Below, piece by piece: positions 1,582 through 20,800 of a stretch of DNA of 64,000 nt. A program made the position numbers and the translations under genes. Every line of letters starts with the position of its first letter. The first letter of the stretch is position 1. The notes beneath the pieces were generated by a model. It saw only the letters and a program-made list of their open reading frames with translations. It did no database searches and was not told where the DNA came from. The stretch covers positions 124,001 through 188,000 of the forward strand of contig JAGTXO010000002.1 of the NCBI GenBank assembly GCA_019448385.1, read 5' to 3'. The DNA comes from Diacronema lutheri. Its lineage: Eukaryota > Haptophyta > Pavlovophyceae > Pavlovales > Pavlovaceae.

Positions 1582-1782
1582 GGCGCGCCCGGCGCCCAGC
1601 AGGCGACGTCCGTGGCTTTTTAAATACGTCTTTGAGGGGGTTCCGGCCTCCACCGTAGTCGTTACAGACTGCCGTTTTCCCGTTCCGCGCGCGCGCGTGC
1701 CTCGTCGAGTTCGAGCGAGCCGACGCGTTCAACCTTGCTCCACGCCCGGCCGCCGCGGGCCAGCGTGCCCCCTCTCGTGAGC

Positions 1783-4700
1783 ATGGCGTGGGACAACGCG
1801 CAGGCCGCCGTTGTGATCCAGCGCATCGCGCGAGGTCGCGCGGCGAGGCGCGAACTCTTCCGCAGGAAGCTGCACACCGTCACAGGTGGCACGCTTCTCG
1901 AGATGCTCGAGGGCGTGCGCCTGTACCACACGAACGCTGCGCGCTCAGCGCGCGTGGCCAGCAATCTTGAACAGCTGCCCGACCTAGTGCCGCGGCTTTC
2001 CAAGGAGTACGACCTGGAGAAGCGCACGTCGGCCGCCAAGGACGTTGCGGTCGTCCTGTGCGAGGCGCAGGGCGAAAACGCGCTGAGGGCCTTCCGCCTG
2101 ATCAAGTCGTCGTCCGTCGCGCACTTTACGAATATGCTCGCGCGCGAGCAGCTCGAGCCGCCCAACACGGCCGTGCTCTACCCGCTTTTCGCGATCATGT
2201 CCAACTTGCCGTCGCTCGGCGGGCGGCCGGGCGAGGACCTGCTTAAGAGCTCGGGCTGCTTCGAGCTGCTCGTCGACTGCCTCTTCTCGAAGGACGGCGG
2301 CGTGCAGTACTACGCCATCGCGGCCGTGTCCAACATGTCGCACGATCTCGAGGCCGTCGCGATCGTCAAGGAGAAGAAGGCAACCGCGCAGCTCGAGGCG
2401 TTGCTCGACTCGCCCAACCGACACGTCATCAACTTTGCGCTCAAGGCGCTCGAGAACGTCAACGAGGTGCATGGCGCCTTCGACTTCCTCTTCGGCGCAA
2501 AGAAGCGCGAGATCGCCGAGCGCCGCAGCAAGATGGAGGCCGCGCGCATCAAGTACCGCTCGCTCTCCGACAGCCACGAGCGACGCGGGCTGGCGGCGTT
2601 GCACGTGCAGAAGTGGGCGCGCGGCCGTCTCTCGCGTCGCGGGATGCTCGACCAGGTGGACAGCAAGGCGGAGATGGCGCGCGCGGCGGTCCGGATCCAA
2701 GCCGTCGCGCGCGGCAAGCTCACGCGCACGACCACCGCCAGGGTGCGCCAGCGCACGCGCGCTCTCAAGATGCGTGCGGGCGTCTCGCGCGTCTCGCGAG
2801 TCAGCGTCAACCTCAAGAAGCGTGTCAAGCGGAACCACGCGGCGGCGGTGCAGGCGGGCGGCAGGCAGCGAATCGAGCGGGTACGCGCGCTCGCCGAGCA
2901 GCTCCATCGAACCGACGCCGCGCGCCCCGTCCACGTGGCGATGCTGCTCGACGCGACGCGCGCCGAGCTCGACGAGCTCGAGCGGCACGCGCGCGCGCCC
3001 ACGCCCGACTGCCTCGCCATCCTGGCCGACCTGCGCCGGCGGTACGCGTTGGCGTGCGCGGGCGGTGGGCCGGCGGGCCTTGCGCGCCTCGAGCGCGCGC
3101 AGCCGATCGTTGCGAAGCTCGAGGCGAGCGACGGCGTCGCCGTGCACGCGGCCATCATGCTCTTCGCGAGCGCGGCCGAGCTGCGCGAGCTGCACGACGC
3201 GCGGGGCGATGCGACGGACGCGTCGGTGCGCGGCGTGCTCGGCGTGCTCGCGGCACGGTACGCGCACGCGCGGGCCACCGTCGACCTCTCCGCCACCGAG
3301 TACGAGCGCGTGCAGGCGCTGGTGGCTATGCTCGACGCGCTGCCGTCCGGCTCGGCCGATGGCGCGAACGCGAACGCGCACACGCTCGTGCTTGCCGCGC
3401 CGACCGAGCTGCAGCAGCTCGAGGCGGAGGCGGAGGGCGAGGAGGCGAGGCGGCTGCTCATCGACCTGCGCCTGCGCGCCGAGCTCGCCCTCGTCTCCGC
3501 CGGCACCACGCGCTCGGCGCTCATCGCAAAGTTGCGCGCGCGGCCGGGCATTCGCGCGCTTACGCAGGCGCACCTCGGCGTGCTCGTCATGGCAACGAGG
3601 CAAGAGCTGCGCGCGCTCGAGGACGCGTGGCCGGAGGGCGCGTCGGCGTTTGGCGCGCAGGTTGATGCCATCCTCGACGAGCTGCGCGCGCGCTATGCCG
3701 TCGCGCTCGCCACGTTTCGCGCCGAGCTCGGCGCGCTCGGCTCGCCGGCCGGCGCGCGCCGCGTGGCGCGCTTCTCCCGTCCGATCATGGCGCAGGCGCT
3801 CTTCGGCAAGGTGGAGGAGGTGCCGCACGTGCTCGTGCACCCGGGCGTGCTCGCGCTGTGCACCGCCGTCGAGATGGAGCAGCTGCACACCGCGCGCGAG
3901 GCCGGCGCGCGCGAGGGGCTCACGCGGCTCATCGACGCGCGTGTGCGTCTCGAGCTCGCGCTCGCCGCGCCGGCGGGCGCGCTGCGGCTGCAGCGCACGG
4001 CGGCGTTGGTCGTCAAGTACGACGACGTGCCGTTCGTCCACGCCGGCCTCTTCCTCCTCGCGTCCAAGCCCGACCTCAAGCAGCTTTACGCGGAGCCGCC
4101 CAACGCGGTAGCTGCGCGCGGCCTCCTCGACACATTGCGCGCGCGGCACGAGCGCGCGGCGGCGGAGCTGATCGCCGCAAAGCGCGAGCGGCAGGCGCAG
4201 CTGGCTGCGCAGCTCGAGCGCGTTGCCAAGACCAGCGCGCTCGCCGCGAGCATGCACCTGACGCTGCAGCGCAAAGTGGAGAGGTCGACGGCCGTCGCGA
4301 CGCACGCGCAGGCCGTGTCGCGCAGCAACGAGGCGCGCACGCTCGCCGCCGCCAAGCGCGAGCGGCAGCAGGCGCTCTCGCACGCGCAGCGCGTGCTGCC
4401 CGCGTACACCGCCGCGCTCAACGCGCTCGCCGGCTCGGCCGCGGACAAGCAGCACGCGGCGACCGTCGTGCTGCAGGAGCGCGAGCGCGCGTCGAACGAG
4501 CACGCGCGGCAGGCGACGCTGCGCGGCGCGGCCACGACGATGCCGGCGGTGCGCGGCGCGGCGCGCGCTCTCAAGACGCGTGCGATGAGCCGCACCGACG
4601 CCGCGACCACCATCCAGCGTTACTGGCGTGGCTGCGTGTCGCGCCGCGCCGTCGCGCTCCGGCGCGCGGCGCGCGGGCGCATCCACGCGCTCGCGGGGGT

Positions 4701-5923
4701 CGCGCCAACGGTCCATGGCGCACCGGTCATCTTCGAGAGCGCGCTGCGCCGGCGCCACGCGGCCGCGACCACCATCCAGCGCTTCGCGCGCGGCCGCGCC
4801 GCGAGGCTGTACGCGGCGAAGAAAATGGCGCTCCTCGCGGAGATGGGCGAGCTGGGCGCGTTGTACCCCGCGCTGCACCACGCGCGCTCGGCGGTCGTCT
4901 GGCTGAGCAGGAGGCGGCACTTTGCCGCGATTGAGTTGCAGCGCATATGGCGCGGTGCGCGCGCACATAACCGCCGGGCGGCGCGCACGCGCGCACGCGC
5001 GCGCGCGCACGCGCGCACGCGCCGTGACCACCGCCACGCGGCGCGCGCGCCGCCCGGCGCGCGGCAGGCTTCGCCGCGCGCAAGCGCGTGCGCCGGTTGC
5101 TCGCCAAGATGGGCGCGCTCTACCGCCAGAGGCAGGAGCGCGAGTACGTGCTGCAAATGGACGCGCACATGTTCCGCGCCTTCCACGCGCGCAAGCGCAG
5201 GTGTGGACGGGCGCGCGGTTACGGCCGTTTCCCTGACCGCCGCGACGCGCGCGCAGCAACGTGCCTTGCTTCGCTGGCCGCGGCGATTGCGCGGGCGCGC
5301 CGATCACCGCGCGCTCGTCCGGCCCGTCGTGGCGCGCGCCGTCGCGCACCGCTGCCAGGGGCGCGCGAGGCTCGACTGCTCTCCCGTTGGTGCGCTCAGC
5401 CGGCCACGCGCCACGCGGCAAGCTGCACGCGAGCTCGTCGGGCCTGGGCTCAAGCTCTTACTCGGACACGACGAGCTACGTGTCGCACAAGTCGCAACGC
5501 AGCAGCGGCTCTCCGCGCCACGCGCCCGCCGAGCTCGGTGCGAGCGCGCTGATGAACGCCGATGAGCAGCTCGCGCACCTCCGTCGGATGCCGCGGACGG
5601 TGGCGGCGAACGTCACCTTCTACCCCGGTCGCGCGTACTTGCAGGCGACGTACGCGCTCCCATCCGCTCCCTCGCGCAGGTACGTGACCACGCAGCGCGG
5701 CCAGACGCTGCTCGCGCCACTCGCGCGGCTACCGAACGGGCTGAAAACGCACCTTGCCACGACGCTCAGCGTGCCCAGCTTCCGCGCGTCACCGCCGTCG
5801 CCGCCGGTGGACTTGAGCGAGCTCGCCTACGGTGCGCGTCGCAGGAGCCCGACCCAGCAGCGCGCGTCGGCGCGGCGCCTCCCCAACTCGTCTGTGCACG
5901 AAGGCACACTCGCCGTTCCCTAG
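1783..5923 (+). CDS. Large IQ-motif protein with armadillo-like N-terminus and six internal helical repeats
   Basis: Predicted exons 1783-4954, 5068-5200 and 5359-5923 (1,289 residues); the third exon's acceptor is less certain. The first intron begins GTGCGC and its removal joins two frames into a textbook IQ motif, ELQRIWRG|FAARKRVRR. Six IQ motifs are visible: VIQRIARGRAARR near the start, two around residues 270-310 (HVQKWARGRLSRR, RIQAVARGKLTR), TIQRYWRGCVSRR, TIQRFARGRAAR and the spliced one. Residues about 60-260 look like an armadillo/HEAT array. Residues about 366-800 hold six degenerate repeats of 65-75 residues ending in the pattern L-R-x-R-Y/A-x-x-A-L-A. IQ motifs bind calmodulin or EF-hand light chains, so a Ca2+-linked cytoskeletal or flagellar scaffold is plausible. 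Start chosen at MAWDNAQAAVV because IQ 1 follows directly. Confidence 0.8.
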
Positions 5924-5930
5924 GAAACGT

Positions 5931-8900
5931 CTACGTAACGGAGTCGGCAGATGTGTCTGCGCCAAGCCCGACCGAAGCCGCACACGCCCCGGGCGTGCGG
6001 TCTGGCGCGCAGGTGGCCGCGGGAGCCGCCGCCGACGGCGCGGCCACGGCCGCGCCGTCGGCGGCGGCCGGCGGCGGAGGCCCTGAGCGCGCGCGCGCGC
6101 GTGCGCTCCACGCGTCGAGCGGATCGACGGGCGTCCTCGAGAGGAGGACCATCGACACAAGCACCGTCTCCTCCGCCCGGCTCCACTCCTGCGCGCGCTG
6201 GCGCACCTGGCGCGTGCCGCCGACGACGACCAGCCGCTGGCGCGTGCGGGCGGGGCGCGCGCCGCGCGTATCGGTCGACGACGGCGGCAGCGAGGCGCTC
6301 GTGTCGCGCGCGATCAGGCGCGCGCCTGCTGCGGCGTGTGGCTGGCCGTGCAACACGAGCGCATCGGCCGCACGCTCATTGGCCGAGTACGTGTGCGCGT
6401 CGGCCGGCGCGTCGGCGCCCGCCGGGGTCAGTGCGTTTCGATCGCCCGCCGGCGCGTCGGGCGTCAGCTTTTGCGGCCTGCGACGGCCGACGCGGAGCGC
6501 GCGCGCGGCGCGCGCGTGAGCGGCCGCGCGCGTGAGCGGCGCGCGCGGCGGATCGCGCGCGGCGCGGCGCGGCGTGCGCACCACCAGGCCGGGATGGAGG
6601 CGGCGTCCGTGCCGAGCCCGAGCGCGATCCGCGAATAGTCGACGGTGAGCATGCTGCCCGCGGCGATTGGCACGCGCGCGTACACGCCGACGCGTGGCAG
6701 CCCGCTTACAAGCCACACCTGCAGTTCGCAGTTGGGCTGCGCGGCGTGCGCGATGAGTCGAGCGAGCGAGCCCGCGCGCGAGACGTCAAGCGAGATCGAC
6801 GACTTGTCGCCGAGTGAGAGGAAGCAGAGTTCCGCCGGCCACGGCACGCCCGCTGTGCGCAGTGCGCGTGCAAATTCGGCGGACTGCGCGAAGAGCTCGC
6901 CGCATGCCTCGAGGACGAGCGCGTCTTTTGAAATGTGCCCGATCGCCGCCAGCCCGTCGAGCGCAGGCCGCACGGGCTGCCAGAGCGCGCGCAGTAGCCG
7001 CTGGTTGTCGCACCGGTCGCGCAGCTCGCACGCCTCGCGCATGCATTCCACTCGGCTCGCGCGCCGGCGGCGGCACGTGTCCGCGTCAGAGCCGGGCACG
7101 CACACGCGCGCACACGCGCCGCGCACACCGCAAAGCTGCACGTTGGACTACCGTGCGAACGGCGCGCGCGCGCGGCGCGTCGGTACGCGGGACAGCGCAC
7201 GCGGGACAGCGCACGCGGCGTGCGCGCGCGGGGGCGTGCGCGCACGGGAAGCAATGTTAACGTTGCGAGCGCGCGCTCGAAGCCGCCGTGGCCGTGGCCG
7301 TGGCCGCCGCCGCCGCCACCGCCGCCGCCGCCGTCGCCGCCGCCGCCGCCGCCGTCGCCACCATTGTCGCCGTCGCCGTCGCTGCCACCGTTGTCGTCGC
7401 GATCGCCGTTGCCGTCGCCGTCGCCGCGCCCGCCGGCGTGCGCGTGCGCGCCGCGCGCGCCGCCGCTTGTGCCCGTGGCGCGCGCGGCGGCGTCTGCGGG
7501 CTCGAGCAGCGCGCGCACGCGCTCCATGTGCACAACATTGCCGCCCGCCGCGAGGAGCAGGAGCTCGCGCACTCCGCGGCCGGCGGTGCGGCGGAGCGCG
7601 GCATATAGGCAGCACAGCGCGACGCGCAGCCGCGGCAGGATCGCGCGCGGCGCGCCGGCGCGGGCCATCGTCGCGGCGTGTTGCGCGGCGCGCTGCACGC
7701 CGACGAGCCGCTCGGGCGCGAGCTGCCCGATGAGCTGCGAATGCATCGCCGCGAGCGCGAGCACCTCAATCACCATGCCGCTCACGAGGTCGTTCACCGA
7801 GTTGCCGTCGCGCGAGATCAACTCGGTGCACAGGTTGACGAGCGCCGAGACGAGCAGCGGGCCCTCGTCGGCGCACGCGCACACGTGCGCGCCGTGCTCG
7901 CACTTGAGCACCGCCGCGAGCACGCGCAGAACGGGCGCGCACGTCGTGTAGAGCATTGCGAGCGAGCGAGCGCCTGCGGAGGCGATGACGCGCGAGCGCA
8001 GGAAGGCGAGGAACGGTGGCATGCAGCCCGACGCGGCGGCGAAGCGGAGCGCGTCGGCGACGAGCGCGGCGTCGGACCGGTCGACGGGCAGCGAGCCGAG
8101 CGCCGTGTCCCAGAACGGCAGCAGCTGCTCGCCGCACGCGTGCACCGCCTGCGTGAGGGGCAGCGATAGGCGCGAGAGCGAGAGGCGGAGGGCGGGCGCA
8201 AACAGCGCGTCGCGCCGGTACGCGCGGCAGAGCTCGCGCGAGGGCGCAAGGCCAAGCAGCTCGCGCGGTAGCAGCAGCGCCGCGATCAACTGCAGCAGCG
8301 CCGCGTCCGCGATCGACTCGAGAGCGAGCTCGGAGAGGGCGCCGACAATGCGGCCGAGCAGTTTGGGCTGCGCGTGCAGCTCGGCGAGCAGCGCCTCGTG
8401 CTGCGGGAAGCGCGCGGAGTTGCACAGCAGGACGAGGCCTTGCATCACGCAGGTGAACGCCGTGCGGTGCGCGTGCAGCACCGGCCGCGGCGCGAGCGCC
8501 GCCATGAGCGCGCGCAGGAGCTCGCACAGCTCAAAGAGGCCGAGCGAGGGCACAGACACGTACGCGACGGGCCGAGTGCGAGGCGTGCGCGGCTCGTCGC
8601 TCGGCGAAGTGCACCGGGTGCTCCCGGCGGGCAGCGTGCGCGGGTCGGCAAAGTACACCGCGTGCGCAAAGTCGTGCACGCTCCGCCACAGCAGCTGCAG
8701 CGCGCGGAGCGCTCTGGTCTCGTCGAGCGGCTGCGCGCTGGGCTCGGCGCACGGCGCGACGGGCGGCGCAGCCGGAGGCGGGCCGCCCGTCGGCGGGCTG
8801 CGCGCCGGCGGCTCCCGCAACGGCTGCTGCTGCGCGACCGTCTCGCCGTGCGCGGGCGGCGGCGCGCAGCCCGCACGCCCCTCGGCCGTCGTGTGTGCGC

Positions 8901-11186: not shown

Positions 11187-14177
11187 TCACGACGAGAGCG
11201 TGGGCGCCGCGTTGGCCGTGGGCGTCTCCGGCTCGGCCGCAAGCTGCCGGAGCAGCGCGAGCACCGCGCGCTGCTCGCCAGCCGTGCTCACGCCGATGGC
11301 GGCGAGGTCGGCGAGCTGCAGCGGCGGGTCGGAGAGCAGCCGCTCGCGCGTGCACAGCTTGTGCTCGATGAAGCAGGCGGCGATGCCCTCGAGGCCCGCG
11401 CGCTTGAGCCAGGTATATACCCACTCGGTCGGCTCGGCCGCCTCTGGCGCGCGCGCGCGCTCGGGACGCACGTGCATGAGCAGCTCGGCGACGACCGCGG
11501 TCGCGCAGGCCGCCGCGGGCTCGTGCGCGTGCGCCGCGAGGAACGCGTCGAGCTGCGCGAGCGAGATCTTGCCGCGCCCGTCTGCGTCGGAGAGCGCATC
11601 GGCAAAGCCGTCGGCGAGCGCGTCGGCCGTGTAGCGCGCGGCAAACGCGCCGCGCAAGCGGCGCCAGTCGGGCGGGACGAGGCGAACGAGCAGGTCGGGC
11701 CGGCCCTCGTCCGCGCCGAGCAGCGCGCTCAGCTCGGCAAGCGCGCGATCACGCAGGCCGATCCGCTCCTTGAGTACGTCTGCCCCGAGCGAGTACATCG
11801 ACGTGGCGCTCGCGTATCCCGCGTCGTCGAACGCGTCGGCGTGCTCCTCGAGGCCCGCTCGGCGCAGCCAGTCGTAGGTGCTCATCTCATCGAGCAGCGG
11901 CGCGCTCGCGCCCTTGCCCACCGGCCGCTCGGCGACGAGCACGTGCGCGCGCGCGACGCAGAGCGCGGCATCGTGCTCGTACAGCCGCAGGTGGCGCGAC
12001 AGTTGCCACACGGAGACTGCGCTCCTCCCCTCGCGCTGCACGGCACTGCACAGCGCCTCGCTCAGCTGCGACAGCTGCGACGACTCGGCCGCGCGCCGGA
12101 TGCCTTCGAACGGCGAGCGTGAGTATGGCGGCGCGCTGACGTCCGCCGAGCCATGGCGGCCGGGCGCATGGCTGCCGGTTGGCGCGCCCGTCGTGCCGTG
12201 ACCGGCCGCGCCCGCGCCGAGCGCGGGCGCCGGGTGCGCGAACGTCTGCAGGAACATCTCCTTGACCGTCGCGAGGTCCGCGATCCGGTATGCGTGCATG
12301 AGAGCCGCGTCACCATCGACAAGTTGAGCCATGCGCCGGGCGCTCAGCTGGTCGACGCGTAGCGCGTGCGACCATTTCTTGGCGTCGTCGAGCTTGAGCC
12401 CGCCCAGCTCGGAGACGAGCGTGACGCCGTGATGCTCGAACGTCGTCGCCCACTGCTCGAGCCCCACCCGCCGCAGGTGCTCGTATATGCTCGTGCGATC
12501 TACGACAACGGGCCGCGTGACGCGCAGGAGCCGCGGCACGTTTGCGAGCGCGCCCGCCGGGTCGGTCTTGTGCTCGAGGAGGTAGCCCTGCAGCTGCGCC
12601 ATCGAGATCTCGTACTCTGGCAGCTGCGAGGCGAACGCGCCCGCCCGCTCCGCGTGCTCCGGGAAGAAGCGCGCGAACAGCCGGCGTTGCTGCGCGTGCG
12701 ACGCGCAGCGCAGCTCCACCTTTACGTCGCACCGGCCGGGGCGGATGAGCGCGCTGTCGAGGCGGTCGATGTGGTTGGTCGTCCTAAAGGCGTCAGCTCG
12801 CGCGCGCGCGCGAGGCGCACGGCGCGCGGCGCGCAACGCACGCGATCAGGCGAGCTCGCGCGCGCGTGCGCGCCGAGCGCGGCGGCGCGCGGCTCAAGCG
12901 CCGCGACGCGCGCGCACATGAAGAAAAGGCGCCCCTCCTGCGAGGCGACGCCATCGAGCGCGTTGAGCAGCCCGGAGAAGGTGACGCCCGTGCCCTGCGC
13001 GCGCGACGCCGACCGCTCGACGAAGACTGCGTCCACGTCCTCGAGCAGCACGATCGAGCTCGCGGGCGCGTCGCGCAAGTTGGCCGCGAGCGAGTTGTCG
13101 TCGAGGTTCTGGTTGGCGAGGGTGAGCATGCACACGTCGAGCTTGAGCTCGCCCGCCAGGGCCTGGCAGAAGGACGTCTTGCCGCACCCTGCGCCTCTCT
13201 CACGCGTGCGCCGCGCGCCGTCAGCCGCAGCCGCAGCGGCGCGCCGCCGCCGGCGGCGGCGGCGGCGGCGCGCGCCGGGCGGCGGTCCGCCGCGCGCGCG
13301 GTGCGCACGGGGCCGTGCGCTGACCGGGCGGGCCGTAGAGCAGATAGCCGCGGCGGTACGGAATGCCCGTCTCCGCGTACCAATCGCACGCGCTGAGGAA
13401 GTGGCGCGCATCCGCAAGGAGCGAGTGGGCCAGGTCCTCGTCGAGGATGACGCTCTCGACGGTGCGCGGCTTCTTCGAGAGCGCGCGCTCCCAGCCGTTG
13501 AGCCAGCCGCTGGAGAGCACGTAGACGCTCAGCTCGTTGCTCTCCTCCTGCGCGGACGCGCTGATCGCCTCCTCGACGAGCTGCTTGAGCACGACGGCGC
13601 CGCCCCTCCACGTCGAGAGGGTGAGCGTCTCGAGCTGCGTCGGCGTGCGGCTGTGGCCGGTCACGACGGTCTCGCCCTTGGAGCGTGTGAGGAGAACGCG
13701 CGTGCCATTGTGCGAGAAGATGTGCACGTCATTGTTGTTGGCCGGCCGGTACTCCACTCTTGGCGTCGCGCGCTGGCCGATCGTCAACTCGAGGCGCCAG
13801 TCCTTCCACGTCTTGCGCTTGCGCTGCGTCTGCGCCATCAGCGCGCCCGCCGAGAGTTCGCGGTGTTTGCCTACAAAGTCGAGCACTTTGTCGAAGATCT
13901 CGTCCTTGTTCAGTATCGTGACGCTCGCGAACGTCGAGCTCCGCACCCATGAGGCCAGGATCTGCCCGATCATCACCAGCGAGAGGGAGAGGCCGCCGAA
14001 GAGCGAGGACGCGACGAACGCCTGCACGAGCTGGTTCGTGCGGAGCAGGCCGACGAGCATCTCGCGACTTGAGAACAAGAGCGACGCGCAAATCGCGAGC
14101 AGCGCCACCATTGACGCGAGCAGCGCCGGCGCCGAGCTCTCGCGTGTCGACGCGACTCGACGGTCGGACATAGACAT
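11187..14177 (-). CDS. BCS1-type AAA ATPase with three C-terminal SAM domains
   Basis: Three exons (14177-13325, 13188-12918, 12783-11187; 906 residues). Both junctions rebuild family signatures: Walker A becomes YLLYGPPG|CGKTSF and the sensor becomes LFFM|TTNHIDRLDSALIRPG, as in BCS1. Residues 15-75 are hydrophobic, about 100-245 match the BCS1 N-terminal domain, about 250-470 the AAA domain with Walker B IVLLEDVDAVF. BCS1 threads the folded Rieske protein across the inner mitochondrial membrane; other relatives sit on ER or mitochondria. Unlike BCS1 (about 420 residues), this protein continues with three SAM-like domains (about 473-532, 676-730, 827-889), each preceded by a helix pair like the end of the AAA lid (ISMAQLQGYLLEHK, VSVWQLSRHLRLYEHD, ISLAQLDAFLAAHAHE). 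SAM domains oligomerise, so a higher-order assembly is possible. Substrate unknown. Confidence 0.9.
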
Positions 14178-14252
14178 CACTAGTCTTGGCCCTTGAACGC
14201 AATTTTACGCGCCCTCCCTCGCCCGCGCGCCCTCTCGCAAACACGCGCCACG

Positions 14253-15230
14253 ATGTTCGTCGCCCTCCTCGCGTTGCACGCCTCGACGGGTGCCACCTCG
14301 CTCGGGCTTCGTTCGGCCTTCTCCGCGCCGACGGCGCTGGTCCGCTCGGCCCGCGGCGGCTCCTCGCCCTCCATGAGCTCCACCCTCCCGAAGGTGTTCT
14401 TCGACATTGACATTGGCGGCGCGCCGGCCGGGCGGGTCGTGTTCGAGCTGCGCGCCGATGTGGTGCCCAAGACGGCCGAGAACTTTCTGAAGCTGTGCAC
14501 GGGCGAGGCTGGTGCTGACCTCACGTTCAGCAACAGCCCGTTCCACCGCATCATCCCTGGCTTCAGTGCGTGCGTGGCCCACACGCGCGCGGGCCCCGAG
14601 CGCGGGACGGCCTCGTGCGCGCCGTGGCCGCGCGTCCTCGTGCCGACGCGGCGCCACCGAATCGCATTGCGCTATGCCACGCCACGCCACGCCGCGCCGC
14701 GCCGCGCCGCGCCGCAGTGTGTCAGGGTGGCGACATCACGCGTGGCGACGGACGCGGTGGGATGTCCATCTACGGACGCACGTTTCGCGACGAGAACTTC
14801 AAGCTCAAGCACGAGGGCTTTGGCACGCTCAGCATGGCAAACGCCGGGCCCGACTCCAATGGGTGCGCAAAGCTCGAGCCACGGCACGCCTCCGCGGCAG
14901 GTGCGCCGCGCTCGTCGCGGCAGCTGACGGCGCGCGCGCCCGTGCCTCGCGCCTGCGCGCGGCGCTCGCAGCTCGCAGTTCTTCATCTGCACGGGCGATA
15001 CTTCGTGGCTCGATGGCAAGCACGTCGTCTTCGGTGCGCGCGCCGCCGCGCGGCCATGCTGCGCGCGCGCGCCTCTCGCCGATTGGCTCGCGCGCTCCGC
15101 CCGAGCGCGCGGCCGCTTCGCAGGCAAGGTTGTGGAGGGCGACGACGTCGTGCGCAAGATGGAGTCCATGGGCTCCAACTCGGGCGCCACCAGGCAGCCA
15201 GTCAAGATCAGCGGCTGCGGCCAGCTGTGA
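14253..15230 (+). CDS. Cyclophilin-type peptidyl-prolyl isomerase with N-terminal targeting sequence
   Basis: Four exons (14253-14565, 14718-14862, 14972-15033, 15124-15230; 208 residues). All three introns start GTGCG and removal gives perfect cyclophilin blocks: [59 protein letters not shown]. The catalytic Arg in FHRIIP, the QFFICT strand and the Trp of SWLDG are all present. The first 20 residues are hydrophobic ([18 protein letters not shown]) followed by a Ser/Arg-rich stretch ([18 protein letters not shown]), so this is a secreted, ER or plastid form rather than the cytosolic one. In an alga with a secondary plastid this would fit a bipartite signal plus transit peptide. It is head to head with the BCS1-like gene, 75 bp between ATGs. 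Confidence 0.95.
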
Positions 15231-16593: not shown

Positions 16594-17700
16594 TCACTCC
16601 ATGTGCTCGAGAGCGGCAGCGGGCCACGCTGGGCGCGATTGCACGGCCACGCCGCCGGTGGCGTGGTGCGGGGAGTCACGCCGCGCGCCGAGCAGCGGCT
16701 GTGCATCGCCCTCGACGTCGCCAGGCGCGGCACTTGCGAGCGAGGGCGCGGGCTCGCCTTTGGCGAGAGTGACCAGAAGCGCGCACACGACGATCACGGC
16801 GGCACCAAAAGTCGCCGACGGCGTCGCGGCCTGGTGCATGATGGCGAGCTGCAGCACGTACGCAATCGGCACCTGCAGCGCGCCGAGTACATTTGCAGGC
16901 GCGGCCTCAAGCTTCTCGAGGCCGCAGTTGAGGGCGACGTTGGCGAGAAGGGAGGCGATGCCGCCGGCGAAGAGAATGAGCAACGTGCGCGATGCGACGC
17001 TGCCGGGCGCGATCGGAATGCCCATGAGAACGCACAGCGGCCCTGTGCTCGCCGAGATTGAAAAGCCCATCCACATGGTGAGCGGCACCGATCCCTGCCG
17101 AGGGCCGATCGCGCGCGTGGCGACGAGGAAGGCGGCGTCTGAGAGCGAGGCGACAAGGGCCAGCGCCGTGCCCACCACCGCGGCCGTCGCGTCCACCGCT
17201 ACGCCGTCGGGTGCGACGCCATCGCCATCGCCACTCGCGCTCGCGTGCGCGACGAGCGCGACGCCGGCGCAGACAAAGACGGCGGCAATCTGGCCCGTCC
17301 GCGTGATCGGTTCGCCGAGCCAGCAGAAAGCCATCGCGGTTGTCCACACGGGCGAGGTGAAGAGCAGCACCGTCGCGTTGCCGATCGGAATCTTTGCAAA
17401 CGCGGCGAACGCGCCCAGGATTGACACGGCGCCGAGCGCCTGCCGGAACACGCAGAGCGCGACGAAGTCCCAGCCATGCCCCGCGCACAGCGCGCGCTTG
17501 CGCACGTCGCCGCGCAGCAGCACGAAGAGCAGACACATCGCGAAGCGCACCAGCCCCACGTAAAAGGTGATCGCGAGCGTCGCGAGGCCGGCGTCGGCCG
17601 CCGAGCGCACGATGATGCTCGACATCGCAAATCCCAACGCCGAGAGGACGACGAGCAGCGCGCCGACCGAGCGCACCATCCCGACGCTCGCCGCTCCCAT
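16594..17700 (-). CDS. EamA/DMT-superfamily membrane transporter
   Basis: Frame of 368 codons from ATG 17700, or 387 from ATG 17757. About ten hydrophobic helices are visible in two halves, the hallmark of EamA (DMT) transporters: first half SVGALLVVLSALGFAMSSII, LATLAITFYVGLVRFAMC, IGNATVLLFTSPVWTTAMAF and GQIAAVFVCAGVALVAHA; second half VVGTALALVASLSDAAFLVA, LLILFAGGIASLLANVALN and FGAAVIVVCALLVTLAKG. The TSPVWTTAMAFCWLGEPITR stretch is the conserved helix-4/loop signature (compare SPVFTALLAWLFLGE). The soluble tail ends QPLLGARRDSPHH. Members export metabolites or carry sugar phosphates; the substrate is not assignable. It is head to head with the coiled-coil gene. Confidence 0.85.
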   Translation of the reverse strand: MGAASVGMVRSVGALLVVLSALGFAMSSIIVRSAADAGLATLAITFYVGLVRFAMCLLFVLLRGDVRKRALCAGHGWDFVALCVFRQALGAVSILGAFAAFAKIPIGNATVLLFTSPVWTTAMAFCWLGEPITRTGQIAAVFVCAGVALVAHASASGDGDGVAPDGVAVDATAAVVGTALALVASLSDAAFLVATRAIGPRQGSVPLTMWMGFSISASTGPLCVLMGIPIAPGSVASRTLLILFAGGIASLLANVALNCGLEKLEAAPANVLGALQVPIAYVLQLAIMHQAATPSATFGAAVIVVCALLVTLAKGEPAPSLASAAPGDVEGDAQPLLGARRDSPHHATGGVAVQSRPAWPAAALEHME

Positions 17701-17813
17701 CACGCCGTGCAAAGCGCCCGACGTGGTGCCGAGCGTGCTGAGCGCGGCGCGAGCCATCACGCCGTGCAAAGCGCCCGACGTGGTGCCGAGCGTGCTGAGC
17801 GCGGCGCGCGCTC
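17698..17813. repeat. 57-bp tandem duplication at the start of the EamA-type gene
   Basis: Two near-identical 57-bp copies start at 17,698 and 17,755. On the minus strand each encodes the same 19-residue unit (RAALSTLGTTSGALHGVM plus one residue) and each ends with an in-frame ATG, so the duplication created two alternative start codons for the transporter. It also changes the spacing to the divergent coiled-coil gene. Confidence 0.9.
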
Positions 17814-17864
17814 GCGCCGCAGGTCGGCCGGCTCGGCCGGCGAAGGGCCGACTCCGAATCAAAA

Positions 17865-20800
17865 ATGACGGGGCAACTCGGGCAAGCCGTTTCCCGTGGG
17901 GGCGCGGAAGCGCTCGCCGGGCGGATGCCGGAGCAGGTCGCGCGCTACATCGCGCACGTGGCGGACAAGGAGCTGATCGTGCCGTTCGACCCAAACCGCA
18001 CGGTCGCGGAGCTCACTGCCGACATCGATCGCCGCTGCCAACGCCAGATCGTCGCGTCGATCATTGGCCGGCGCGTCGTCAGCCTGCACGCTCGCATGCC
18101 ATCCGCGGCCAAGCTCAAGGGGAACCACCTGCTGCGCGACGTGCTCTCGGAGGGCGACGCGGTCTACGTAGTCCTCACCCACTCGACCGCGGCCGCCGCG
18201 CGCGCGAGGGCCGTCGCGGTCGCACCTGACGATGCGGAGCCTGCGCACGCGGCCGCGCTGCCCGCCCCTACGCGGCAGGCCGCGCGGCCAGCGCGGCCGG
18301 CGTCGGCGTCGAGCGCGCGCGCGACGCCGACGTCGCAGCGGCAGGCGGTGGACATACTTTTCCCAGTCAGCTCCGGCGCGCTCGCCCGTCCCCATTCCGC
18401 GGGACGGCGCGCGGCGGCCGGCGCGTGGCCGTCGTCGGCCGACCCGGCGAGCCACTCTGCGGTGGCGTTGAGCGTCACGGAGCTGGTGGACGCCGAGGAG
18501 CGCGCCACGCAGCGCGGTGCGAGGCGCCCGTCGCGTGAGGCGTGGGTTGACCGCGACTTCCACCACAACGCCGCCACGCCGCGTGACGCCGCCGTGGGCG
18601 GCGGCGCGGGCGCGCGCACGAGCACGGCGGCTCTCACGCTGCCGACCTCAAACACGCCGCGCCTCTCGTCCGCCGGCACGCCGCGCGACGGGCGCGCGCC
18701 GAACGACGCGGCGGAGGTGGAGCGACAGAAGCGCCTCGAGGCCGAGGAGGAGGTCCTCATCGCACGGCGCAAGGCGCTGCACCGCTTCCCGTCGCACTCG
18801 CGCGCGCAGTCGACCGTTGGGCGCAGCCAACTGCCGACCACCGAGCTCGCCGCGCGCGCGCGCTCGCTCACGCGCCGCGAGCGCTTCTTGCACCGGCTGC
18901 TGCGCGAGGCGAACGCGAGCGCGACTGGCGCGGGCACCACGCCCGCGCGGCACCAGCCGACCGTCCCCGAGTGGAAGGAGAAGATTCTCGACCGCGCAAA
19001 GGTGGCCGCGCTCGCGCCCGGACGCGCTGCGCCACAGCTCTACCGTTCGGTACCCCTGCCGGTGCCGCAGGCGCAGCAGACGCGCACGCAGCTGCAGCAT
19101 GACGCATCGCGCCCGCTGGTGCGGCCGGCATCGGCGGGCGCGCTCCGCCCCGCCAGTCCGAACGGCTCGCTCGCCGGCGGCCGGCCCGCACCGGGCGCAT
19201 CAGCCGAACCGTCCGGCCCCGCGTTGCGCGCATCCGTGTCGATGAGCAAGCTCATCTCGCGGCAAGTGGGCAAGCGCAGCTTCTCCGCGTCGAGCGCCAA
19301 GTACCTCGAGCGCGCCGTGCACGAGCTCGAAGCGGCCATTGCTGGCGAGAGCGTGGACGCGGACGAGCGCGCCGGCGGCGCGCCCACCGAGCTCGCCGAG
19401 CGCGCCGAGCGCGCCGCGAGCGCCGCGCCGCCGCGCACGCGATCACCGCGCGACATGTCCGCGCAGCGGCCGCTCGATTCGAGCCGGCCGCAGTCGGCGG
19501 AGGCGAGCGCGGCGCATGGAGTGACGAACGCGGAGCGCCGCCTCTTCCACTACACGGACCTGGTCGCGAAGCAGGAGCTCGACGCCTACCACCTGCGCGA
19601 GAGGGAGGTGCGGATGCGCGAGCAGATCGACGAGCAGGCGAGCGTCGAGGCGGCGGCGGTGGACGCGCGCTTTGCGCACGTTGAGGACCAGGGCGACAAG
19701 CTGCTCGTCGCCGCACAGACGATGCACACGGTGCGCGCGCCTTGCGTGCGGCGCGCCCGCGCCCGCCAGCGCGCGCGCGCGCGCGCTCACGCGCGTCCCA
19801 CGACGCGCGCGCGCCGGCGGCCGCCGCCGCGCGACGTTGCGCGCGGCAGCGGCTCTTCGAGCGGTTGGCGCTGTGCGAGGTGCGCGTGAATGAGACACTC
19901 GCGGTGCACGCCGAGCTGCGGCAGGCGGTGCAGCTGCTGCGCAAGGAGCGGACCAGCCTGCTCGTGCAGCTGCGCAGAGCGCAGTCGCGCACGGCCTCGC
20001 TCGCGCACGACTGCAAGCACGTTGCGCACGTCGCGCACTCGGGCGTGGACGACGCTGGCAAGATCGAGGCGAAGCTCGAGCGCACGCGCAGCGAGTTCCA
20101 GTGGGAGACGGAGATGCACGAGAAGAACCGCGCCGCGATGGACGCGCAGGCCGCCGAGCTCGACACGCTCCTCCTGCAGCGCATCGAGGACGCGGACGCG
20201 TCCGCTGAGCTGCACAAGCAGCAGCAGTGGGCGCGCCTGCACGAGCTGCGCCACCGTTTCGACGGCCTTGCCAACCAGCACGGCCTGCTCCACGAGTCGC
20301 TCATGTACATCGAGGGCAAGTTTGCGACGGTGTGCCAGCTCGTCGCCGTCAAGTACGACGGCCTCCTGCAGGTGCGGCTTCAGCGCGGCGCAGGCGTGGC
20401 GTCGACGCGCGCGGCACCGCGGCGCGCGTGCGTGGGCTCACGCACCCCGCGCGCGCGTCGCCGCGGCGCGCGCTCAGGGCGGCACAACGGCTGAGGTGCT
20501 CGCGTGCTACCGCACGCGGGAGGCGCACAACACGTCGCTCTGGCGGACAGCGGATGAGCAGACGCTGCTGCGCGAAGCGCTGCAGGCGGAAGTGCGGGCC
20601 CTCGAGGAGAAGGCCGCGCGCCTCGAGGCGTCGGCGCTCGCCCAGTCGGACGAGGAGGGGCGCGCACAGGACTACGCCGAGTCCGGGTACGAGGACCTCG
20701 AGGTGAGCCGCAGCAGCGCCCGAGCGCGCCGCACCGCGCGGCGCGCGCGTGCGGCCGGAACGGGGCCGGCACGCCGCCGCGGCGCACCGGCCGCGTCCGC

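Follow-up and report, generated by a model that had tools for sequence, protein, structure and literature searches.

A BCS1-type AAA protein with three lid-SAM units in the haptophyte Diacronema lutheri and its protist relatives

In the haptophyte Diacronema lutheri, a three-exon gene on the minus strand encodes a BCS1-type AAA protein of 906 aa (spliced gene model, GT-AG introns). Comparison of family profiles confirms that, after the AAA core of this predicted protein, a unit consisting of a BCS1 lid and a SAM domain is present three times. We read the protein as a BCS1 paralogue whose substrate is not the Rieske protein and, with moderate confidence, propose that its triplicated lid-SAM tail would serve as a docking or polymerisation scaffold.

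The DNA analysed here (the window) is a stretch of 64,000 nucleotides of one contig, with a GC content of 70-75% per 4-kb block. The genome of the same organism was searched as 43,492,796 bases in 103 contigs; the published assembly is reported as 43,502,671 bp in 103 contigs with 73.25% GC (PMC8379373).

Results

Gene structure and domain layout

The first-pass annotation had assigned positions 11187-12783 to a BCS1-type AAA ATPase, and this span proved to be exactly exon 3 of the gene model. The features of the gene, all on the minus strand, are as follows.

13325..14177, minus strand: exon 1, with the N-terminal hydrophobic segments, BCS1_N and the start of the AAA core up to GPPG of Walker A (GT-AG boundaries, Pfam)
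13965..14126, minus strand: two N-terminal hydrophobic segments, residues 18-36 and 53-71 (Kyte-Doolittle peaks 2.38 and 1.83)
12918..13188, minus strand: exon 2, with the rest of Walker A and Walker B LLEDVDA (gene model and motif positions)
11187..12783, minus strand: exon 3, with the AAA end, lid1 and the three lid-SAM units, TGA stop included
12510..12698, minus strand: lid1, the AAA motor's own BCS1 lid, residues 404-466
12288..12509, minus strand: SAM1, residues 467-540 (hhalign against SAM2, PDB SAM; weak in Pfam)
12237..12287, minus strand: lid2 helix 1, residues 541-557, RIADLATVKEMFLQTFA (alignment; helix predicted at exon-3 residues 170-181)
12093..12236, minus strand: linker within lid2, residues 558-605, predicted disordered (pLDDT <50 at exon-3 residues 190-222)
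11916..12092, minus strand: remainder of lid2, residues 606-664 (hhalign against lid3 and lid1)
11697..11900, minus strand: SAM2, residues 670-737 (Pfam SAM_2 above cut-off, PDB SAMs)
11448..11690, minus strand: lid3, residues 740-820 (Pfam AAA_lid_BCS1, PDB profile match)
11232..11438, minus strand: SAM3, residues 824-892

Pfam places BCS1_N (PF08740) at residues 71-243 (E 5.4e-22, 79.1 bits against a cut-off of 28.1), the AAA core (PF00004) at residues 278-399 (E 3.2e-22, 79.8 bits, above cut-off) and AAA_lid_BCS1 (PF25426) at residues 405-458 (E 6.2e-22, 77.7 bits against a cut-off of 27), the last split in two under the permissive E 10 threshold of the scan. Walker A, GPPGCGKT, lies at residue 282 and Walker B, LLEDVDA, at residue 332. 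The three domains and both motifs are shared with BCS1, BCS1L and yeast Bcs1. The tail beyond lid1 is 440 residues long and carries the SAM domains and the repeated lids; in it, SAM_2 (PF07647) is matched at residues 678-719 (E 9e-9, 35.8 bits versus 20.5, whole protein).

The lid-SAM unit is repeated

The first-pass annotation proposed that a module of AAA lid and SAM had been duplicated twice, and profile-profile comparison against permuted controls bears this out. With hhalign profiles built from 29 aligned proteins of the family (segment ends differed slightly among scripts; lid2 comprised residues 541-557 plus 606-664), the probability was 97.2% for lid1-lid3, 97.4% for the lid2 core with lid3 and 91.6% for lid1 with the lid2 core, or 80.5% when the linker was included in lid2. 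The SAM pairs reached 98.4% (SAM1-SAM2), 93.3% (SAM1-SAM3) and 95.5% (SAM2-SAM3). The best of 20 column-permuted controls per pair gave 1.8-9.0%, and pairs of lid with SAM or of unrelated segments gave 1.4% or less, except lid1-AAA (73%) and unit1-AAA (60%), which score because the segments have 8 residues in common. Profile searches find SAM matches in the tail, and the three segments align to one another above background. The duplication is also backed by the match of lid3 to BCS1 lids in the PDB, by the predicted helix series and by the three groups of the unit tree, all given below.

In the window protein alone, none of 500 composition shuffles reached the local score of any of the three unit-unit pairs (z 7.9-10.2). 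The single-sequence evidence is uneven, since lid1-lid2 was not significant (71 of 500 shuffles reached the score) and the mixed control lid3-SAM2 attained z 3.0 (5 of 500 shuffles), from which the shuffle test appears somewhat lenient. Shuffles, column-permuted profiles and unrelated-segment controls together rule out a chance repeat in a high-GC protein rich in Ala and Leu. An artefact of the gene model is likewise ruled out by transcript ORFs labelled complete that show the same order (P0003, P0015, P0021, P0023).

An AlphaFold model of exon 3 (mean pLDDT 86.8; 390 of 531 residues at 90 or above) shows the same helix series three times. By VIA-align, which resolved lid1 and SAM3 and barely probed lids 2-3 and SAM1-2, residues ~24-90 of the model match solved BCS1 lids and residues ~449-521 match SAM domains. 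Foldseek with the 531-residue model gave no match at E <=0.001. For the full-length model of a relative, BCS1 structures rank first (8t14, E 4e-31); its pTM is only 0.48, and the model does not fix the placement of the units relative to the ring. The repeated element was first described as a helix pair resembling the end of the BCS1 lid; by alignment and model the unit contains the whole lid, from helix 1 onward.

Relatives and age of the triplication

Searches with the tail returned 39 proteins for the window query and 35 for the Amorphochlora query, each among ~8,000 candidates sharing most words; the queries covered the whole tail, which favours complete copies. With P0001 and P0040 dropped as duplicates of the window protein, 51 distinct proteins were counted, the window protein included. 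All six domain profiles (HMMs built from 29 of these 51 proteins) are matched by 48, with a cut lid1 in P0014; the exceptions are P0019 and P0033, which end early, and P0035, without a SAM2 match. Named members with all six domains are Amorphochlora amoebiformis (a chlorarachniophyte) and Pteridomonas danica (Dictyochophyceae), which represent Rhizaria and stramenopiles.

A search with unit 1 added 26 proteins, five with all six domains and 17 with the lid only; 12 of the latter are named fungal proteins with no SAM profile match. P0057 is without SAM2, P0061 and P0062 are divergent, and P0056 ends after SAM1 on a contig of 1,948 bases and looks cut off. No convincing one-unit BCS1-SAM protein was obtained from this search, which covered proteins from about 499 aa upward. 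P0062 appears to have four units, with four SAM and four lid matches (the fourth lid partial; the weakest match ~10 bits, with E-values for four sequences), and the number of units therefore seems to vary.

A midpoint-rooted tree was built with units from 21 of the 29 aligned proteins and the four of P0062. In it the units separate by position into three groups, first, second and third (supports 0.94, 0.99 and 0.78). The first and third groups are pure, and the second is pure apart from one P0062 unit (P0062b). The named organisms in this tree are D. lutheri (window) and Amorphochlora; Pteridomonas lies outside it. The three groups imply that the triplication is old: it either came before the sampled lineages diverged or spread in its entirety. 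In the genome of D. lutheri, no units 2-3 were found besides the window copy. A tree of the AAA core (70 rows, P0060 and P0061 dropped) sets all 52 tips of the SAM family apart from 18 others; after re-rooting, the support of this node is low, at 0.63, and 0.14 with P0062 removed.

Prokaryotic and viral-contig BCS1-like AAA proteins (Deinococcales, Chamaesiphon, IMG/VR) share the BCS1-type core and lid. In 21 of 21 viral loci the reported matches end by P0002 residue 462, and in 13 of 13 prokaryotic loci by exon-3 residue 89, both at about the lid1/SAM1 border. A viral or bacterial source of the module was rejected, as relatives there match core and lid only; the search patterns were drawn from core and lid.

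The first-pass annotation knew of BCS1 homologues with short C-termini but of none with such a triple array. This agrees with the open-licence literature (titles and starts of abstracts), in which no report of a BCS1-SAM protein was found. Protist sequences, most of them unannotated, nevertheless contain the architecture repeatedly, and the family has a wider reach and a greater age than that annotation could have told.

Identity of lids 2 and 3

In the PDB, the lid3 profile matches best to three BCS1 sequences, in each case at the lid (E 0.0023-0.0042). Window lid3 alone matches AAA_lid_BCS1 (PF25426) at E 4.8e-4 with 20.4 bits, under the 27-bit cut-off, and three of 11 family lid3 segments match the Pfam BCS1 lid at E <=1, the best at 3.7e-6. 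These matches identify lid3 as a BCS1 lid. Lid2 of the window protein gave no direct Pfam or PDB match, and one of 13 family lid2 segments matched the Pfam lid (E 0.02); it is a putative lid by its match to lid3 and lid1. Alignment and AlphaFold model show that a disordered linker of ~48 residues splits lid2 between helices 1 and 2.

Because the loop of lid3 (DADGRGKIS) has the form D..G.G, which resembles an EF-hand loop by eye, lids 2-3 might instead be EF-hand-like helix-loop-helix elements in a calcium-regulated SAM array. Calmodulin is indeed among the PDB rows of the lid3 profile, but as the last one (E 0.88) in a search led by BCS1; no EF-hand family of Pfam was matched at E <=1 by the 11 lid3 or 13 lid2 segments, and the commonest residues at the third and fifth places of the loop are Ala (6/29) and Arg (9/29). 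We rejected this reading on the Pfam and PDB searches and regard it as extremely improbable.

In lid1, 28-29 of the 29 proteins retain each of the six fixed places of the motif SMA.LQG. What persists of it in lids 2 and 3 is mainly S..QL, with S in 29, Q in 27 and L in 24 of the 29 proteins for lid2, and in 29, 23 and 18 for lid3. Mean pairwise identity is 0.72 for the AAA core, 0.52 for lid1, 0.36 for lid2 and 0.28 for lid3. From the loss of the motif and the falling conservation we infer that lids 2-3 are spacers and no longer parts of the motor. It is quite unlikely that they are working lids, either packed on AAA cores, of their own subunit or an adjacent one, or stacked as extra lid rings beneath the motor, and regulating ATP hydrolysis. 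Such a role would suit the lid-like helix series kept in the model and the attachment of the lids in order in 48 of the 51 proteins; it is opposed by the reduction of the lid1 motif and by the lower identity of both lids relative to lid1.

The SAM domains and their charge

Of the three SAM-like domains first noted, the second and third stand on profile matches of their own, and the first is weak in Pfam. SAM2 can be assigned to the SAM fold from its matches: 10 of 11 family segments match SAM_2 at E <=1 (best 2.1e-8), and its profile matches a SHIP2/EphA2 fusion in the PDB at E 6.8e-7. For SAM3 the assignment becomes clear through relatives; the window segment alone gives E 0.09-0.1, under the Pfam cut-off, and all 13 family segments give matches to both SAM_2 and SAM_1 at E <=1 (best 1.4e-11), with Caskin tandem SAMs as the best PDB matches of the profile (E 8.4e-16). 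Window SAM1 reaches E 0.008 with Pfam SAM_EPH, under the cut-off, three of 13 family segments match at E <=1, and the best PDB SAM of its profile is SASH3 (E 0.0074); it is a putative SAM, recognised mainly through its hhalign match to SAM2.

Within the limits chosen by the analyst for mid-loop and end helix, the mid-loop of SAM3 is net negative in 27 of 29 family members and its end helix net positive in 28 of 29. The corresponding counts are 18 and 10 of 29 for SAM1, and 17 and 15 of 29 for SAM2. An acidic mid-loop with a basic end helix is the reported charge pattern of End-Helix/Mid-Loop SAM contacts (PMC5993539). The window protein's own SAM3 has a net charge of 0 in both regions, which makes SAM3-driven polymerisation least convincing in D. 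lutheri, where polymerisation may have been lost or may be different. The genome of this organism holds 19 further SAM_1 matches at E <=0.001, some in one frame.

It is possible, although somewhat on the unlikely side, that the tail is instead an adaptor platform without self-assembly. SAM1-3 would each bring in different host proteins with SAM domains, these would hand folded cargo to the BCS1-like translocase, and lids 2-3 would be mere spacers. The 19 other SAM_1 matches could supply such partners, SAM1 and SAM2 are without the polarised pattern of SAM3, and the window's own SAM3 is neutral. The acidic and basic surfaces of SAM3 in most relatives argue against it, being what is expected of a self-complementary SAM.

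A paralogue beside a canonical BCS1

Three genes of the D. lutheri genome have a BCS1 lid: the window gene, a gene for a canonical BCS1 of 489 aa (C28) and a third BCS1-like gene (C33). C28 alone retains both EWR and DDR, and its BCS1_N match is stronger than that of the window protein (1.6e-39 versus 4.3e-22). In yeast Bcs1 these two motifs are reported to bind the Rieske protein; E212A, D300A, R302A and charge inversions in both motifs are described as lethal on respiratory medium, and R214A and D301A as having only mild effects (PMC12219900). In the alignment, the window protein has G-W-E at the place of EWR and D-N-S at that of DDR and thus, compared with BCS1, BCS1L and yeast Bcs1, is without EWR and most of DDR. 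Among 53 family rows (seven fragments left out), E212 is kept in none (2 gaps), R214 in one, D301 in one and R302 in five; D300 is kept in all 53, and 19 have a lysine at the R302 position. The Rieske-binding motifs no longer exist as such, but D300 persists, often along with a basic residue, so that part of the cargo-facing site is retained.

The window protein further differs from BCS1 in its SAM/lid tail and at its N-terminus. Bcs1 is reported to have one TM helix (PMC12219900), whereas the hydropathy profile of the window protein has two peaks near the N-terminus, and the protein is probably membrane-anchored. An MGxxx[S/T] N-terminus is present in 10 of 46 full-length relatives and absent in the window protein. 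Such a start is suggestive of N-myristoylation and a cytosolic N-terminus. Of the three BCS1 homologues of a mould, two are reported to be located outside mitochondria (PMC10672213), and such paralogues therefore need not be mitochondrial. Aspergillus fumigatus Bcs1B and Bcs1C, reported outside mitochondria, are likewise BCS1-type AAA proteins beside one true BCS1 and have C-terminal extensions; we liken them to the window protein by description only (PMC10672213). No literature was found joining BCS1-like proteins, the outer mitochondrial membrane and OM66.

That the window protein is the ordinary Rieske chaperone of D. lutheri with a decorated tail is very unlikely and was rejected on the BCS1_N score and motifs of C28. 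Its own BCS1_N, AAA and lid matches above the Pfam cut-offs and its D300 would be expected of such a chaperone; the separate canonical BCS1 and the second hydrophobic segment would not. We read it as a non-Rieske BCS1 paralogue on the basis of sequence comparison.

Discussion

Starting from the architecture, unit homology, conservation and motif loss described above, the following course can be proposed for the non-Rieske paralogue with a scaffold tail. Tandem triplication of a unit of the AAA lid (the small helical domain) and a SAM domain would have created the C-terminus. Lid1 would still be in the service of the motor; lids 2-3, without most of the near-invariant motif of lid1, which presumably faces the motor, would have become rigid helical spacers carrying SAM2 and SAM3. 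If the protein forms a ring, by analogy with the BCS1 heptamer, the tails could surround the vestibule opening like a collar. SAM-SAM contacts, chiefly of SAM3, would then either connect adjacent rings to form larger arrays or dock cargo and partners that carry a SAM domain. The early suggestion that SAM polymers hold the heptamer in a larger assembly may apply in this form, by analogy.

In tandem-SAM scaffolds (Caskin, liprin, SARM1, tankyrase), the SAM domains are adjacent or joined to other domains. The SAM3 profile is closest in the PDB to one of these, Caskin, but the SAM domains of the window protein are separated by copies of the AAA lid. To our knowledge there is no other example of an AAA lid reused as a repeating SAM spacer, and such reuse would be a route of domain evolution.

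The same design in distant relatives suggests that this is probably an old, uncharacterised machine. A bolder version is tentative and, in our estimate, rather unlikely: an ancient protist machine in which the fusion of AAA lid and SAM was multiplied as a free-standing building block. Its BCS1-like rings would sit on a membrane that faces the cytosol, as the MGxxx[S/T] start of some relatives may suggest, would be joined through SAM3 into two-dimensional arrays, and would translocate or remodel a folded cargo that is not the Rieske protein.

Most of what is known of BCS1 concerns its role as a translocase for a single folded substrate. An additional BCS1 family in protists, old, widely kept and with a modular tail, would mean that rings of the BCS1 type have further functions, and it poses the questions of whether the tail drives assembly of the rings and what folded cargo non-Rieske BCS1 paralogues handle.

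Genes near the BCS1-SAM gene

The BCS1-SAM gene (start 14177, minus strand) lies head-to-head with a plus-strand frame encoding a cyclophilin-type peptidyl-prolyl isomerase, whose first ATG, located by eye, is at 14253. Approximately 75 bases thus separate the two starts, and the genes may therefore have a common promoter. The N-terminus of the cyclophilin-type frame, also judged by eye, resembles a signal or targeting peptide. This frame and some other genes in the window are as follows.

Some genes in the window other than BCS1-SAM
1735-5562, plus: large frame in which an IQ calmodulin-binding motif and armadillo repeats are matched
6467-7141, minus: piece of a SET-domain protein (PF00856, E 8e-10; AWS match weak)
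14193-14924, plus: frame for the cyclophilin-type isomerase described above (Pro_isomerase in Pfam, E 6e-11)
16597-17994, minus: EamA-type transporter (E 1.1e-15, two matched stretches)

Other BCS1-type genes and relatives

The D. lutheri genome has a third BCS1-lid gene (G000:C33:504448-504630, minus strand), and its 516-aa ORF gave no BCS1_N match. BCS1-type AAA genes are also present in bacterial assemblies, including Deinococcales and Chamaesiphon (loci L035-L047), where the match is limited to the core and lid.

Ten of the 46 full-length relatives of the BCS1-SAM protein (P0020, P0021, P0023, P0025, P0027, P0028, P0031, P0041, P0044 and P0047) begin with MGxxx[S/T], which we take to be a possible N-myristoylation signal; such a signal would be unexpected in a mitochondrial inner-membrane protein. 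In the divergent relative P0062 (894 aa), apparently four units, each a BCS1 lid plus a SAM domain, follow the AAA core, the fourth lid being a partial match, and this sequence suggests that the number of lid-SAM units varies.
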